Shown in pieces: positions 22,898-29,070 of a DNA stretch of 64,000 nucleotides (position 1 is its first letter; each line of letters begins with the position of its first letter). Made by a program: the position numbers and the translations under genes. Under the pieces are notes generated by a model. That model worked only from the letters and a program-made list of their open reading frames with translations. It was not told where the DNA came from and searched no databases. The DNA is from Halorubrum salinum (GTDB taxonomy: Archaea > Halobacteriota > Halobacteria > Halobacteriales > Haloferacaceae). The DNA lies in contig NZ_JANHDO010000001.1 in NCBI RefSeq assembly GCF_024494575.1, positions 620,001 to 684,000 on the forward strand, read 5' to 3'.

Positions 22898-23902
22898 TCA
22901 GTCCGCCGCGGACGCCGTCCCGAGGTACGCGTCGTTGATCTCGTACTCGCCGTCGTCGTTCTCGACCAGGTACTCGCCGTAGTAGGGGACGCGGTTCGCG
23001 ACGACCGCCTCGAACGTCTCGGCTATCTCCTCGCGGGTCATCTCGCCCATCGACCGGAGGTCGTCGTTGCGGTTGAGACACCCCTTCAGGTACCCCTCGT
23101 GCGTGACGCGCACGCGGCCGCAGTTCGCACAGAACTCCTCGTTCTCGACGGGGTCGACGATCTCGACCATGCCGCCGCCCTCTCCGTCGGCGTCCTCGCC
23201 GACGAAGTACCGCTTGCGGTCGTGCATCTCGCGGTGCTCGACGCGGTCGGCCTCCGCCGCGAGCCAGTCGTGTACGCGCCCGATATCGATGTTCCACTCG
23301 GGCTTGCCCGTGAGCTCCGGCATGTACTCGATGAGCTGGAGCTGGAGTCCCTCGTTGTCGGCGACGTGCTCGACCATCTCCTCGACGTAGCCCGCGGTGT
23401 GCGAGAACACGACCATGTTGAGTTTCACGGGGTCGAGCCCGGCGTCGACCGCGGCCTTCACGCCCTCCAACACTCGCTCGTACGCGCCCGACTTCGTCAC
23501 CTCGGCGAAGTCCTCGGGGTCGAGCGCGTCCTGCGAGACGTTCACTCGGTCCAGCCCGGCGGCTTTCAGGTCCGCGGCGCGCCCCGGCAAGAAGGTCCCG
23601 TTCGTCGTCATCGACACCTCCATCGACTCCGGCGTGCGCTCGATTATCTCCTCTAGATCCTGTCGCAACATCGGCTCGCCGCCGGTGAACTTCACCGAGT
23701 CGACGCCGTACCCCTCGACGACCTCCAGGAAGCGTACCACGTCGTCCGCGCTCATCTCCGACTCGCTCGGCTCCATCGGGCCGCGCGTGTCGCCGAGCCC
23801 CTCGTTGTGACAGTAGACGCAGTCGAAGTTACACCGGTCGGTGAGCGAGATCCGCACCCCTGTCACCTCCCGTCCGAAGTCGTCCGCGAGCGGCCCGTTC
23901 AT
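22898..23902 (-). CDS. moaA: GTP 3',8-cyclase MoaA
   Basis: A 334-aa radical-SAM enzyme for the first step of molybdenum cofactor synthesis (GTP to 3',8-cH2GTP, with MoaC). The N-terminal cluster motif CNFDCVYC sits at residues 24-31, SAM-binding [10 protein letters not shown] follows, and the C-terminal second cluster motif [18 protein letters not shown] is intact. The start at [10 protein letters not shown] agrees with a TATA box (TATTTAAG) about 27 bp upstream. The C-terminus ends ASAAD rather than the Gly-Gly seen in bacterial MoaA. moaE and a MoaD-like gene lie elsewhere in the window. Confidence 0.94.
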
Positions 23903-23970: not shown

Positions 23971-24129
23971 TTATCTTCTCCCGCCGTCGTCGACGCCGAC
24001 CGCCCCCAGCGCCTCCCGCGCGTACGCCGTCGCCACGTACCCGAACACGACCGCGACGAGCGCGAGCGACCCCCACACGAGCGCGGCGAACGCGGTCGGC
24101 CCGAGCGTCGCGAGCACGGGCGGCGTCAC
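23971..24129 (-). CDS. One-TM small partner of the symporter, 52 aa
   Basis: GTG at 24129 overlaps the symporter stop by 4 bases (GTGA), so it is translated with it. The protein begins [20 protein letters not shown], spans the membrane once (~residues 12-38) and ends in a short polar tail GVDDGGRR. Small single-TM proteins coupled to SSS-family symporters are a known pattern. It is too small for similarity calls; the overlap and hydrophobicity are the evidence that it is real. Confidence 0.7.
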
Positions 24130-25730
24130 GCCTCCTCACCCCCGTCGATCCGATCGGCTTCGGCGTCGCCTTCGCCGGGGCCGTCGCCCCTCCCGTTGAC
24201 GTCGGTGGGCCTGCCGCCCCTCCCGTCGCCGCCCTCCGCGGCTACGCCCCCGTCGGTCATCGGGCTGTCGAGCCGTCGGCACTCCGCGCCGAGGGCTCCG
24301 AGATCGGCCCCTTCGCCGCCGACGACGTGGGCGACCGCGGTGGCGGCCGCCGAGACGGTCGTCGCACCGGCGAACGCGACGAGGAACGACGGGGTCGGCG
24401 TCGGACCCGGGAGCGCCGCGAGCGCCGGCGCGAACTGCGGGAAGTACGCGGTGCCGACCGTCAGCCCGGCGAGGCTGGCGGCGACCGCGCCGCGGTCGGA
24501 GAGGCTCGTCGACCAGAGGCCGGCGAGGAACGGGACGAAGACGGCCGCCGCGACGAGGTCCGCGGTGAGGAACAGCGCGAGCACGCTGTACCCCTGTGCG
24601 CCGACGACGGCCGCGCCGATCGCCACGAGTGCGGTGAGCAGGCGGCCGGCGCGACCGAGCGGTCGCCCCTCGGCGTCGAGCACCCGCGCGAGGTCGACGG
24701 TGACGAGGCTCGCGATGGCGGTACACATCGTGTCGGCGGAGCTCGCGACGAGGAGCACCGCGAGGACGACGACGGACAGCGCCACCCACTCCGGGAACGC
24801 CTCGACCACGAGGAGGAAGAAGGCGACCGACGCGCCGCCGTCGGCGGTGAGCCCGAGCGCCGCGGAGGCGATCCCGAACAGCCCCGCGAGAAGCACCAGC
24901 GGGACCACGGCCACCGCCGCCACGGCGAACCCGCGGCGGACCGACTCGTCGTCGCGGGCGGCGTACACGCGCTGCCACACGCCCTGATTCAGCATGTTCG
25001 CGCCGAGCACCGCGAACGCGACGTACACGCCGAAGGCGACGCCCGGGCCGAACGTCGGGTCGAGAAGCGTCGGATCGGCCGACGTCGCGGCGGCGTGAAG
25101 CGACCCCGCACCGCCGAGCGCGATGACCGCCCCGGCGAAGCTCACTGCCAGAAGCGGCAGGATCACGATCGCCTGTAGGGTGTCCGTGAACACGCTGGCG
25201 ACGAGGCCGCCGTACGCCGTGTACAGCAGGACGAACCCGCCGATGAGCGCCGCGGTGTACGCCTGCGGCACCTCGGCGACGAGCGAGAGCGCCGCGGCCA
25301 CGCCGGTCAGCTCGGCGGCGAGGAACACGGACATGTAGAAGATCGAGACGGCGACCACGAGCGCGTACATCGACCGCCCGTACCGCGCGAGCGCGAACTC
25401 CGTCAGCGAGTGGCCCTCGGGGAGCAGCTCCCGGACGCGCAGGCCGACGGGGACGAAGAGCAGGAACGGGACCGCGCTCCCGACGGCGTAGCCGAGCACC
25501 GCGGGGAGCCCGCCGAACGCGGCTCCGGCCTCGGCGGGAGCCAGCAGTATCCACGCGCCCATCACGCTGGCGACGAGGGTGGCCGTCGTGGCCGCCGGAC
25601 CGGTGGTCGACCGCGCCGTGACGTAGTCGTCGAGGGTGCGAACGCGCCCGCGGGCGTGGAGCACGCCCGCAACGGTGAACGCCCCTAGCGCGACGACGGT
25701 GACCGCCAGCGCGAGTTCGGTCGAGACCAT
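24126..25730 (-). CDS. Sodium:solute symporter (SSS family), thiamine-linked
   Basis: A 534-aa transporter with about 13 hydrophobic segments of the SSS/LeuT fold: [20 protein letters not shown] (TM1 region), then [20 protein letters not shown] (TM5-6 signature of SSS proteins), and [13 protein letters not shown]-terminal ~60 aa are polar low complexity. It overlaps the second tenA by one base and the 52-aa gene by four, so tenA-tenA-symporter-small TM form one operon next to a ThiN-domain regulator. Import of a thiamine precursor or degradation product (for example an aminopyrimidine) is inferred from context. Confidence 0.87.
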
Positions 25731-26392
25731 CAGATCTCCTCCGCCGCGTACGCGGCGTCGAAGAACGCGACTTCGAGCGAGACGGTTCGGCCGAACAGGC
25801 CGGCGACCCGCTCGCGCCGCCGCGGGGACAGCGACGGGCCGACGCGGTCGAGCTCCGCGCGCAGGAAGTCGACGAACGACGCGAACGGCGGCGCGGCGTG
25901 CAGCTCGATCCACTCGGAAAAGAGCGGGTCGGCGGGGCGGTCGTCGGCCTCTCGGGTCGCCCACGAGAGGTAGATCCACTCCGCGGGCACGAGCACCGCC
26001 AGCGTCTCGGCGTACCCGCCCTCGCGGCGGGCGCGGCCGAGTAGATCACGGAACGCCGCGGTCGGCTCCGCGAGGACCGGGTCGGTCCGGTCTCTCCCCG
26101 GAACGTCGTGCGCGTCGAACGCGCGCTCGAAGAAGTCGTTCTCCGCGTCGGTGAGCGTGTCGAGGAACGCGACGTAGCGGCGTCGCGCGTCCGTCGACGG
26201 CGCGTCCGCGAGCGCGACGGCGAACGCCGCGGTCAGGTCCTCGACGACCGCGTAGTCCTGCACGACGTACCGCGCGAACGCGTCGCGGTCGAGGGTCCCG
26301 GCACCCAGCTCTCGCGTGAACCGGTGGTCCGTCGCCGCGCGCCACTCGTCTTCGACCCCGTCGCGGAGGGTCGCGGTGAAGCGGTCGCTCAC
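25730..26392 (-). CDS. TenA-family protein lacking the catalytic Cys (TenA_E type)
   Basis: A 220-aa all-helical TenA homologue, GTG start (VSDRFTATL) overlapping the upstream tenA by 4 bases. The pyrimidine-binding Asp is kept (RYVVQDYAVV, residue 46), but the position of the nucleophile Cys reads VPAEWIYLSW: Ala-Glu in place of Pro-Cys. This is the TenA_E pattern, whose members in plants and other organisms act on N-formyl or amino-HMP rather than as classical thiaminase II. It probably works with the Cys-type paralogue upstream on different pyrimidine intermediates. Confidence 0.87.
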   Translation of the reverse strand: MSDRFTATLRDGVEDEWRAATDHRFTRELGAGTLDRDAFARYVVQDYAVVEDLTAAFAVALADAPSTDARRRYVAFLDTLTDAENDFFERAFDAHDVPGRDRTDPVLAEPTAAFRDLLGRARREGGYAETLAVLVPAEWIYLSWATREADDRPADPLFSEWIELHAAPPFASFVDFLRAELDRVGPSLSPRRRERVAGLFGRTVSLEVAFFDAAYAAEEI

Positions 26393-27048
26393 GCCGCCCA
26401 CCCCTCGTCGGCGTACGCCATCTCCCAGAAGGCCAGCTCGAGGCGGGCGCTCGTCAGGAACGCCTCCCGCATCTCGTCGCGGTAGCCGGGGCGGGCGGCC
26501 GCGCGGTCGTCGACCAACTCGCGCAGGGCCGCCGTCTCCGCCCGAAACGCCTCGCTCGTATACGTCTCGATGAACGGCGTGTACCGGTGGTCTCCCTCCG
26601 CGATCTCGGCCATGTGTTCCGCGACGTCGAGGTACCCCTGCATGCACGGGAACAGCGCCGCGACGGCGACCGGGACCGGCCGCTCGTGGGCCGTGCGGAC
26701 GAGGAAGCTCGTGTACGCCTCGCAGGTCGGCGTCTTCTCCGTCTCCGCGAGGTCGGCCTCGCTCACCCCGTACTCCGCCGCGAACGACCGGTGAAGGTCG
26801 AGCTCCTCGGAGAGCACGGCGTCGCCCCCGCCCAGGAGCGTCGCCATCGCCGACTCGTCGCGCGCCTTCGCGCCCGCCACGGCGTAGGTCCGCGCGTAGT
26901 CGAACAGGTACCGGTAGTCCTGTTCGAGCCACCGCCGGAACGCGACCGGATCGAGGTCGCCCGCGGCCAGTTCAGTGACGAACGGGTGATCGAGCTGTGC
27001 GGCCCATATCTCCGCGCCCGCGTCGAGCAGGTCGTCGGTGAACGCCAT
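26389..27048 (-). CDS. tenA: Aminopyrimidine aminohydrolase / thiaminase II TenA (Cys type)
   Basis: A 219-aa TenA_C-type enzyme. It hydrolyses 4-amino-5-aminomethyl-2-methylpyrimidine to HMP in thiamine salvage. Asp44 (LEQDYRYLFD), Cys135 (ALFPCMQGYL) and the C-terminal Glu (LELAFWEMAY, ~205) match the numbering of the Bacillus enzyme. First gene of the operon; a TATA box (TTATATTAG, ~27071-27079) precedes the ATG by ~27 bp. Transcribed divergently from the ThiN-domain regulator. Confidence 0.93.
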   Translation of the reverse strand: MAFTDDLLDAGAEIWAAQLDHPFVTELAAGDLDPVAFRRWLEQDYRYLFDYARTYAVAGAKARDESAMATLLGGGDAVLSEELDLHRSFAAEYGVSEADLAETEKTPTCEAYTSFLVRTAHERPVPVAVAALFPCMQGYLDVAEHMAEIAEGDHRYTPFIETYTSEAFRAETAALRELVDDRAAARPGYRDEMREAFLTSARLELAFWEMAYADEGWAA

Positions 27049-27057
27049 GAAAACCCC

Positions 27058-27093
27058 GTGGTATCAGCGACTAATATAACTACTGTATACCAC
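27058..27093. promoter_or_regulatory. GTGGTAT / ATACCAC dyad flanking the tenA TATA box
   Basis: Perfect 7-base arms at 27058-27064 and 27087-27093, 22 bases apart, placed either side of the tenA operon's TATA box and within the 127-bp gap shared with the divergent ThiN regulator. A dimer could bind here and occlude TBP. Likely target of the adjacent regulator; no binding site is known to me for direct comparison. Confidence 0.5.
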
Positions 27094-27175
27094 GCGGGCC
27101 GTTCGGTCTCTCTCGGCCGCTCCGAGCCCGCGCGCCGTCGGACCCTTTTAGGAGCCGGCTCGCGTTCCGTTCGCT

Positions 27176-28093
27176 ATGTCGCTGCAGTTGCCGAGCGAGA
27201 TCGTCGTCGAGCGGTTCCTTCCCACCGTCCGCGTGTTACTCGCCCGCGCGCTCGACGAGCGGGGGTTCACTCAACAGGAGGTCGCCGATCGCCTCGGCGT
27301 CACGCAGGCGGCGGTGAGCCGCTACGTGAGCGGTGACGCCGCGATCGAATCCCGGATCGCGGAGGACCCCCACACGCAGCGGACGGTCGAGACCGTCGCG
27401 GACGGGTTCGAAGCCGGGGACATCGACGAGTACGAGGCGCTCGCGGAGCTGTCGGCGCTGGTCGACGAACTCGAGGACCGGGGACCGATCTGCGCGATCC
27501 ACGAGGAGGAGATGCCGGCGCTCGCCGGGCTCGGCTGTGACCTGTGCGTTCGCGGCGACGACGACCGGCTTCGAGCCGAGCGGGAGGCGCTCGCCGACGT
27601 TCGGAAGGCCGCGCGGCTGTTCGCCCGCACCGAGGGGACCGCCCGCGTCGTGCCCAACGTCGGGACGAACGTCGGCACCGCCCTCCCGGACGCGACCGAC
27701 CACGCGGACGTCGCCGCGATCCCCGGCCGGATCTACGAGATGGACGGCCGGGTCGAAGTGCCGGCGAACCCCGAGTTCGGCGCGTCCCGTCACGTGGCCG
27801 GCACCGTCCTCGCGGCCGCCGCCGTCGACCCGTCCGTGCGGGCCGCGATCAACGTCCGCACCGACGACGCGCTGCTCGCCGCCGCCCGCGAGCGCGGGTT
27901 CGATCCGCTCCGGGTGGACGCCGACTACGACGACAGGAACCGGCGGCTCCGGGAGCGGTTCCGCGAGGACGGCGTCCGGCCGGTCGTGTACCACGAGGGG
28001 GCGTTCGGCATCGAGCCGGTCACCTACGTGCTCGGGTCGACCGCCGTCGACGCGGTCCGGCGGCTCGCCGATCTGATCCCGGCCGACCGCTAG
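27176..28093 (+). CDS. thiR: ThiR-type regulator: HTH plus ThiN (thiamine-phosphate synthase-like) domain
   Basis: A 305-aa protein: N-terminal helix-turn-helix (FTQQEVADRLGVTQAAVSRY, residues ~29-48), a short Cys-containing linker (GPICAIHEEEM, AGLGCDLCVRG) and a C-terminal ThiN domain (ARVVPNVGTNVGTAL; PGRIYEMDGRV; VPANPEFGASRHVAGTVL). Stand-alone HTH-ThiN proteins are the archaeal ThiR repressors, which sense thiamine phosphates. A TATA box (CTTTTAG, ~27145-27151) lies ~27 bp upstream. The adjacent divergent operon, with two tenA genes and a transporter, is its obvious target. Confidence 0.9.
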   Translation: MSLQLPSEIVVERFLPTVRVLLARALDERGFTQQEVADRLGVTQAAVSRYVSGDAAIESRIAEDPHTQRTVETVADGFEAGDIDEYEALAELSALVDELEDRGPICAIHEEEMPALAGLGCDLCVRGDDDRLRAEREALADVRKAARLFARTEGTARVVPNVGTNVGTALPDATDHADVAAIPGRIYEMDGRVEVPANPEFGASRHVAGTVLAAAAVDPSVRAAINVRTDDALLAAARERGFDPLRVDADYDDRNRRLRERFREDGVRPVVYHEGAFGIEPVTYVLGSTAVDAVRRLADLIPADR

Positions 28094-28163: not shown

Positions 28164-28931
28164 TCACACCTCGACGACCAGCCCGTCTCTCGCGACCTCG
28201 ACTTCGCCCGAAAAGCCCGCGTCCCTGACGCCCCGTGCCATCTCGCGCTCGCGGCCTCCCGTGTGCGGGTACAGGTGCGAGAGCAGCAGGCGGCCGACGT
28301 CGGCGTCGGCGAAGGCGCGGCCCAATTCGGTCGGGTTCGGGTGGTTCGACACGTCTGTCCCGTCGGGGAACGAGCAGTCGTGGACGACCAGTTCGCTGCC
28401 GTCGGCGAACGACGCCAACCCCGCGAACGCCTCCGTGTCGCCCGATATCGCGAGCGGTCCGCTTTCGCCCGGCACGTCGGCGCTCGGCGGCGAGAACCGG
28501 TAGGCGAGGCCCTCCATCGAGTGGCGGGTCTCGCGGGCCGCCACGTCGAACCCGGCGGCCGAGAACGACCGCGACGCGGACACCTCTCGGACCGACAGGT
28601 CGATCCGGCCGTCGAGGTACCCGTGGACGTCGAACAGCCCGTCGACGAGCGCCTTCGTCCCCGTCGGCCCGACGACCTCCAAGTGGTCCGCCCCGGCGAG
28701 CCACCGGGCTTTCACGAGCGGTAAGAGCGCTGCGACGTGATCGAGGTGGTGATGGGTCAACAGCACGGTCGAGACGCCCTCGTAGCCGGGGTCGGTCTCC
28801 GCGAGCCGGTGGAGGACGCCCTCGCCGCAGTCGACGAGCAGCGTTCGGCCGTCGTCGGTGAGGAGGTAGCCGGCCTGCGCGCGGTCCGGAACCGGCATCG
28901 CGCTGCCGGAGCCGAGCACGGTGAGTTCCAT
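28164..28931 (-). CDS. MBL-fold metallohydrolase (RNase Z-like)
   Basis: A 255-aa metallo-beta-lactamase-fold hydrolase. The metal motif LLTHHHLDHVAALLPL is intact, and the further ligands GDTE, HDCSFP and LSHLYPH are present. Start MELTVLGSGSAMPVPDR is the family N-terminus. It resembles ElaC/arylsulfatase-like members but lacks the long exosite of true tRNase Z, so RNA processing is not assured. Substrate unknown. Confidence 0.88.
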   Translation of the reverse strand: MELTVLGSGSAMPVPDRAQAGYLLTDDGRTLLVDCGEGVLHRLAETDPGYEGVSTVLLTHHHLDHVAALLPLVKARWLAGADHLEVVGPTGTKALVDGLFDVHGYLDGRIDLSVREVSASRSFSAAGFDVAARETRHSMEGLAYRFSPPSADVPGESGPLAISGDTEAFAGLASFADGSELVVHDCSFPDGTDVSNHPNPTELGRAFADADVGRLLLSHLYPHTGGREREMARGVRDAGFSGEVEVARDGLVVEV

Positions 28932-29070
28932 GCCTCGACCGAGGCCGCAGACGCCTAAGTGCCCCACGGTGGGCGACCGGGCCGGCCGTTCGCCCACCGC
29001 GGGCACCAGAAAAAACCAACCTGATAATCGGAGACGAGGGTACATATACCGACTCGCGACTTCGGTCTCT

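Follow-up and report, generated by a model that had tools for sequence, protein, structure and literature searches.

Within a 64,000-nucleotide stretch of the Halorubrum salinum genome (assembly GCF_024494575.1, contig NZ_JANHDO010000001.1, positions 620,001 to 684,000; hereafter the window) we describe a conserved operon for the salvage of thiamine precursors. A gene for a regulator with a helix-turn-helix (HTH) and a ThiN domain faces four tightly packed genes, which encode a TenA enzyme with the active-site cysteine (TenA1), a TenA without it (TenA2), a sodium symporter of the SSS family and a 52-residue protein with one transmembrane (TM) helix. The assignment of this module to thiamine salvage is strongly supported. 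With a probability of roughly 0.55, it is a thiamine-regulated operon that imports the breakdown products 4-amino-5-aminomethyl-2-methylpyrimidine (AmMP) and/or its N-formyl derivative (FAMP), which the TenA enzymes convert to 4-amino-5-hydroxymethyl-2-methylpyrimidine (HMP). The transporter belongs with a known family that had already been linked to vitamin B1; new here are the candidate substrate, the candidate small subunit and the pairing of the two TenA types.

Conservation of the tenA-symporter module

The symporter was searched for in 148 genomes of the family, in sets compiled by hand, and was detected at about 50% identity or more in 64 of them. All 64 also encode TenA, compared with 38 of the 84 genomes lacking the symporter (Fisher test, 3e-15). 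When labels were shuffled within genera, 57.4 co-occurrences were expected, and none of 20000 shuffles reached the 64 observed. The two genes are adjacent in 31 of 60 fetched haloarchaeal loci, spread over many genera, which bears out the neighborhood conservation that a first-pass annotation of this DNA had put forward as a check. The complete gene order of the module was found again in one congener (G156, locus L220), with proteins 80-93% identical. The recurring adjacency, the exact order in the congener and the recurrence of the small open reading frame (ORF) together indicate that the arrangement is not due to chance. Nor do orthologues of the symporter reside mostly beside genes for some other substrate: they often adjoin tenA, always co-occur with TenA and keep the thiamine operator described below where they lie elsewhere.

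The layout read in the first-pass annotation, a ThiN-domain regulator divergent from a tenA-tenA-symporter-small protein operon, is upheld in its coordinates and domains (Table 1), as are its one- and four-base overlaps. The tenA1 and tenA2 genes overlap by four bases (GTGA), the ATG start of the symporter gene lies within the tenA2 stop codon (TGATG, one base), and the small-protein gene begins at a GTG across the symporter stop (GTGA, four bases).

A predicted thiamine operator shared by salvage and biosynthesis genes

A 30-bp motif (TATAACTtAGTTATAYnAcccaGTtATAAC) was trained on 27 tenA upstream regions and reached a log-likelihood of 417, compared with 86-93 for shuffled sequences. Its match upstream of tenA1 is the top-scoring site of the entire window, and with held-out training, from which congeners and the window were excluded, this site scored 17.7 bits, the 99% quantile of the controls being 13.8. 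The motif also precedes genes that had no part in the training, namely thi4 of the host (25.5 bits; 24.5 held-out) and thiC of congeners (25-32 bits; 23-31 held-out). Promoters of all 23 symporter genes of the clade that lie away from tenA, in acetyl-CoA-synthetase-, metallo-beta-lactamase-fold (MBL)- and moaA-linked groups, carry it at 10.7-24.2 bits, and 22 of them exceed 6 bits with the held-out motif, the remaining one scoring 1.7. As a control, 630 other upstream regions gave 95% and 99% quantiles of 2.2 and 20.2 bits, the highest scores coming mostly from genes that share a promoter region with the symporter or tenA, and from Nramp-like genes. Across 900 kb, 42 sites outside tenA promoters scored at least 15 bits (symporter genes, 26; Nramp-like genes, 9; ThiN genes, 4); 39 of the 42 lie no more than 200 bp from the start of a gene of one of these three kinds, regions that cover 3.8% of the sequence. 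No riboswitch was detected by an Rfam scan of the window.

The window regulator, an HTH fused to a ThiN domain, has the make-up of a ThiR repressor, and the predicted operator is common to tenA, the symporter gene, thi4 and thiC. Relatives at 61-65% identity are encoded near tenA or the symporter in other genera. The position of the site, and what is generally known of ThiN repressors, point to ThiR as the operator-binding protein; by the same token, haloarchaeal promoter architecture suggests that the site overlaps the TATA box. The host encodes two HTH-ThiN paralogues, of which this regulator is the first. The second (G000:C5:102324-103238; L221:825-1739) is 40% identical to it and, as judged by eye, lies close to genes for a dCTP-deaminase-like protein and a protein resembling the E1 component of thiamine pyrophosphate (TPP)-dependent 2-oxoacid dehydrogenases. 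No thiamine operator was found upstream of it in the motif scan. Its assignment as ThiDN was considered and rejected, the gene reading as an HTH-ThiN regulator.

The shared operator delineates a thiamine regulon in haloarchaea, which has additional, unassigned members. One gene that often has it (12-14 bits in the host genome, up to 24 elsewhere) encodes an Nramp-family protein (PF01566, 226-235 bits) without the DPGN and MPH metal motifs, with AAGPATMAS in TM1 and GGAVHITLVTMHS in TM6 (G000:C3:106558-107838, equal to L230:2559-3881; L033:3632-4945; L044:3302-4648; L045:8665-10122; L231-L237). It adjoins tenA or tenA and the symporter gene in many genera, and its co-occurrence with TenA is 62/64 versus 40/84. 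We regard it as a candidate non-metal vitamer transporter.

Table 1. Genes and predicted regulatory site of the module and its flanks (positions in the window)
Feature	Position	Strand	Evidence and remarks
HTH-ThiN regulator (ThiR type), 305 aa	27176-28093	+	PF10120, 167.7 bits; also HTH_3
Predicted ThiR-type operator, TATACAGTAGTTATATTAGTCGCTGATACC	27060-27089	-	12-41 bases before tenA; 26.2 bits
tenA1, Cys-type TenA (aminopyrimidine hydrolase/thiaminase II), 219 aa	26389-27048	-	PF03070, 149.5 bits; TIGR04306, 133.6 bits
tenA2, Cys-less TenA (TenA_E-like), 220 aa	25730-26392	-	PF03070, 71.2 bits; Glu138 in AEWxYxxW
SSS-family sodium symporter, haloarchaeal ThiV/SSSP-like, 534 aa	24126-25730	-	PF00474, 66.2 bits
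One-transmembrane-helix protein, candidate symporter accessory subunit, 52 aa	23971-24129	-	Small ORFs directly behind the symporter gene elsewhere
moaA, downstream flank	22898-23902	-	TIGR02668, 381.5 bits; marks the ancestral site, outside the mechanism
RNase Z-like metallo-hydrolase (MBL), upstream flank	28164-29045	-	PF12706; marks the ancestral site, outside the mechanism

The symporter and its bacterial relatives

The first-pass annotation did not count SSS symporters among the standard thiamine transporters. This is not supported: the ThiV/SSSP proteins form a well-established SSS family for HMP and thiamin (PMC4260697, PMC2211319, PMC11452348, PMC6593275), and McRose et al. 2014 placed a Euryarchaeota-Halobacteria clade within it (PMC4260697). 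The symporter of the window may therefore have a new substrate and a new small partner, but it does not represent a new transporter family. Several features tie it to ThiV. The Na2-site serines S330 and S331 are invariant with the bacterial relatives and align with the SS of vSGLT; Y81 (cTMD2) and E140 (cTMD3; Glu, not Asp) are likewise invariant, their helix placement being judged by alignment; and regulation is of the thiamine type, by the operator in the window and by a riboswitch on the nearest bacterial relatives. An AlphaFold model matched SGLT, CHT1 and SiaT in Foldseek, as expected for SSS; in view of its middling confidence (pLDDT, the predicted local distance difference test, 66), no residue-level claim is based on it.

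The nearest bacterial symporter found via a plasmid collection is from Halomonas (41% identical) and is encoded directly behind a TPP riboswitch (65.1 bits). Halomonadaceae symporters preceded by such riboswitches are 39-42% identical to that of the window, and a TPP riboswitch stands at the gene start in 14 of 16 loci tested. In 23 of 80 loci a gene for a Cys-less TenA, 38-43% identical to TenA2, starts shortly behind the symporter gene, and no Cys-type TenA was found beside it; the single ORF that was read contains TEWIY. Thiamine control thus reaches this symporter and this Cys-less TenA in two forms, through a repressor in the archaea and through a riboswitch in the bacteria.

In a sister subfamily of the symporter (L087-L090, 40% identity), a 5-formyltetrahydrofolate cyclo-ligase-like gene (PF01812) and small one-helix ORFs come after the symporter gene, and the motif scan found no thiamine operator for this subfamily. 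The PF01812 cyclo-ligase-like paralogue family has been linked to thiamine.

The 52-residue one-helix protein

Homologues of the small protein are 33-49 residues long, contain one helix and share a 19-residue consensus; about one in two haloarchaeal loci encodes such a homologue directly behind the symporter. Across genera the ORF overlaps the symporter gene by one or four bases, whether tenA is nearby or not. Profile searches of the 52-residue protein gave no Pfam or NCBIfam match; with NF038354 (cut-off 40) it was unmatched, while controls from Sulfitobacter and Paracoccus matched at 64 and 75 bits. A relationship to CcmD or KdpF was rejected, the matches being below threshold and confined to single homologues. 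Most likely, the protein serves as an accessory subunit of the symporter.

The two TenA enzymes

TenA1 exceeds the TIGR04306 cut-off of 130 bits and keeps the Bacillus subtilis active-site set, with Cys135 in the motif FPCMQGY. It has the residues of the TenA_C class (Cys135, D44, Y47, Y112, Y163 and a C-terminal Glu), and at least 90% of 32 orthologues keep D44, Y47, Y112, C135, Y163 and E204. TenA2 has no Cys at the active-site position (PAEWIY); in the alignment E138 and E207 are invariant and A137 is nearly so, in agreement with the residues reported for TenA_E, namely a conserved and a C-terminal Glu (PMC5635689), the equivalence of E138 to Glu129 of Pyrococcus furiosus resting on local alignment. 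Among solved structures, the closest to TenA2 is that from Streptococcus pneumoniae (1z72/2a6b, 173 bits) rather than 1rtw or the plant TenA_E 2f2g (44 bits). TenA_C is described as converting AmMP to HMP, and TenA_E as converting FAMP to AmMP (PMC10470507, PMC5635689).

Thiamine gene content of the host

The host genome (2.73 Mb, 99.86% complete) encodes Thi4 and, outside the module, ThiE (198.6 bits) and ThiD (245.6 bits). No ThiC, the enzyme for one half of the vitamin, was found in it, and ThiC is absent from 35 of the 52 searched genomes of the genus, the host included. With this gene content the organism needs external pyrimidine or whole thiamine. Absence of ThiC as the driver of ThiV was rejected, because the two show no correlation across the family. 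In two genomes of the family thiC is split into two matches (G057:C2:138484-139742 and G092:C2:55473-56731), possibly by a frameshift or a sequencing error.

The genomic site of the module

Thirty congeneric loci were compared at the site between the MBL gene and moaA: 19 are empty, nine hold tenA1 alone, and two, the window and G156, hold the symporter and the small protein. In another genus the symporter gene lies between the same flanks without tenA. This looks like an old site after loss of parts, not a recent arrival. The module is plasmid-borne in Halarchaeum. In one congener moaA seems broken by stops and frame changes (G100:C1:1619226-1620203).

Proposed mechanism and substrate of the symporter

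At low thiamine, probably sensed as TPP, the HTH-ThiN repressor would leave the 30-bp operator over the expected position of the tenA TATA box. The symporter, a haloarchaeal ThiV, would then use the sodium gradient to import a pyrimidine derived from thiamine breakdown, most likely AmMP and/or FAMP, probably with the one-helix protein as its accessory subunit. The Cys-less TenA may remove the formyl group from FAMP, the Cys-type TenA may convert AmMP to HMP, and ThiD and ThiE, encoded elsewhere, would then yield thiamine phosphate. The first-pass annotation had proposed a module that salvages the thiamine pyrimidine and is controlled by a ThiN-domain regulator, and had taken import of a precursor as the best guess; genomic context, co-occurrence and the shared operator all agree with this reading. 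More tentatively, the symporter and the 52-residue helix may form a two-component sodium symporter for AmMP/FAMP whose specificity departs from that of HMP-carrying ThiV through a His-to-Asn exchange in TM6, with the Nramp-fold protein as a second vitamer transporter; we hold this fuller version to be possible, at well below even odds.

A number of observations weigh against AmMP/FAMP import by this module. The host also encodes a ThiB-like protein (115.5 bits), so the module need not be the sole uptake route. ThiC is present in 20 of the 64 genomes with the symporter and in 26 of the 84 without it. About half of the loci lack the small protein, which is therefore not essential to the family. 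At cTMD6 a Phe followed by His or another polar residue is common to all but one ThiV, as a reported signature and not a strict definition (PMC11452348); the window symporter has L247-N248. Finally, HMP uptake by a ThiV has been followed directly only in SAR11, where the data point to HMP (PMC11452348); SAR11 mostly lacks TenA.

The uptake data bear on the strongest competing explanation, in which the module is the same and the symporter carries HMP, the TenA enzymes handling breakdown products that form inside the cell or enter otherwise. The SAR11 ThiV is likely a high-affinity HMP importer (PMC11452348), the nearest bacterial relatives are under TPP riboswitches, and the TM2 Tyr and TM3 acidic residue are kept. 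However, a carrier of HMP would not need TenA in 64 of 64 genomes; this obligate presence suggests a substrate that requires TenA, AmMP or FAMP, over HMP. Moreover, the TM6 F-H seen in Halomonadaceae examples is replaced: every haloarchaeal member of the set has Asn in place of His, and nearly all have an aliphatic residue in place of Phe. We consider HMP transport unlikely, though a serious contender. Import of intact thiamine, hydrolysable by the Cys-type TenA, appears improbable. It would fit the thiaminase II match of TenA1 and one reconstruction that gives ThiV as a B1 transporter (PMC6593275), but the host already has its ThiB-like thiamine-binding protein, and TenA is always present though thiamine import would not require it. 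It is highly improbable that the symporter carries proline, acetate, pantothenate or another unrelated solute and merely happens to lie in the operon. Automatic annotation as a sodium:proline symporter speaks for it, but the symporter reaches 34 bits with the panF and 32 bits with the putP equivalog model, far under their cut-offs of 328 and 516, and the proline/pantothenate carrier annotation was rejected. A clade of 15 loci that neighbors acetyl-CoA synthetase would likewise point to another solute; its symporter promoters, however, score 10.7-24 bits (most 6-20 held-out), those of the synthetase genes average about -14, and all genomes of this clade hold TenA. The acetate-linked reading of the clade was rejected on this distribution of the operator. 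In the symporter tree, tenA-linked and acetyl-CoA-synthetase-linked members split on one branch, the window symporter grouping with a tenA-linked member; across L047-L072, one clade adjoins acetyl-CoA synthetase genes yet retains the thiamine operator.

Thiamine degrades readily, and many organisms subsist on its fragments. The identity of the AmMP/FAMP transporter has been posed as an open question (PMC10470507), and the two-component reading, if true, would answer it by identifying a transporter for both compounds. Operon structure, regulation and strict co-occurrence tie the archaeal transporter to both TenA types, and bacterial riboswitch operons tie it to the Cys-less type, so the question becomes testable in model haloarchaea.

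Relation to known systems

With the ThiV/SSSP transporters of SAR11, Methylobacillus, algae and the Halobacteria clade, the window symporter shares thiamine-type regulation, thi or tenA neighbors, the TM2 Tyr and the TM3 acidic residue. It differs from them in its ThiR-type operator instead of a riboswitch, in L-N instead of F-H in TM6, in its obligate co-occurrence with TenA and in the overlapping one-helix gene. Archaeal ThiR repressors reportedly are HTH-ThiN proteins, and the window regulator has the same domain make-up and position at thi genes; as a difference, the host has two paralogues, and the operator can be assigned to either one only provisionally. The TenA_C/TenA_E salvage pair of plants, algae and Bacillus (TenA with YlmB) likewise combines one Cys-type TenA with one Cys-less TenA bearing a conserved Glu, whereas the Cys-less enzyme of the window is far nearer to the S. 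pneumoniae structures than to the plant protein. Halomonadaceae operons, with a TPP riboswitch, thiV and in some cases a Cys-less tenA, have a related symporter and Cys-less TenA in common with the window, and differ from it by a riboswitch in place of the repressor and by the lack of an adjacent Cys-type TenA and of the small protein. Small proteins beside other bacterial SSS genes (e.g. NF038354) are labeled by NCBI as putative transporter subunits, with no detectable sequence relation to that of the window. Similarly, human SGLT2 is an SSS symporter with a one-helix partner, MAP17, whose sequence relation to the window protein is undetectable; if the latter is indeed a subunit, it would add a further case of an SSS symporter with a one-helix partner.

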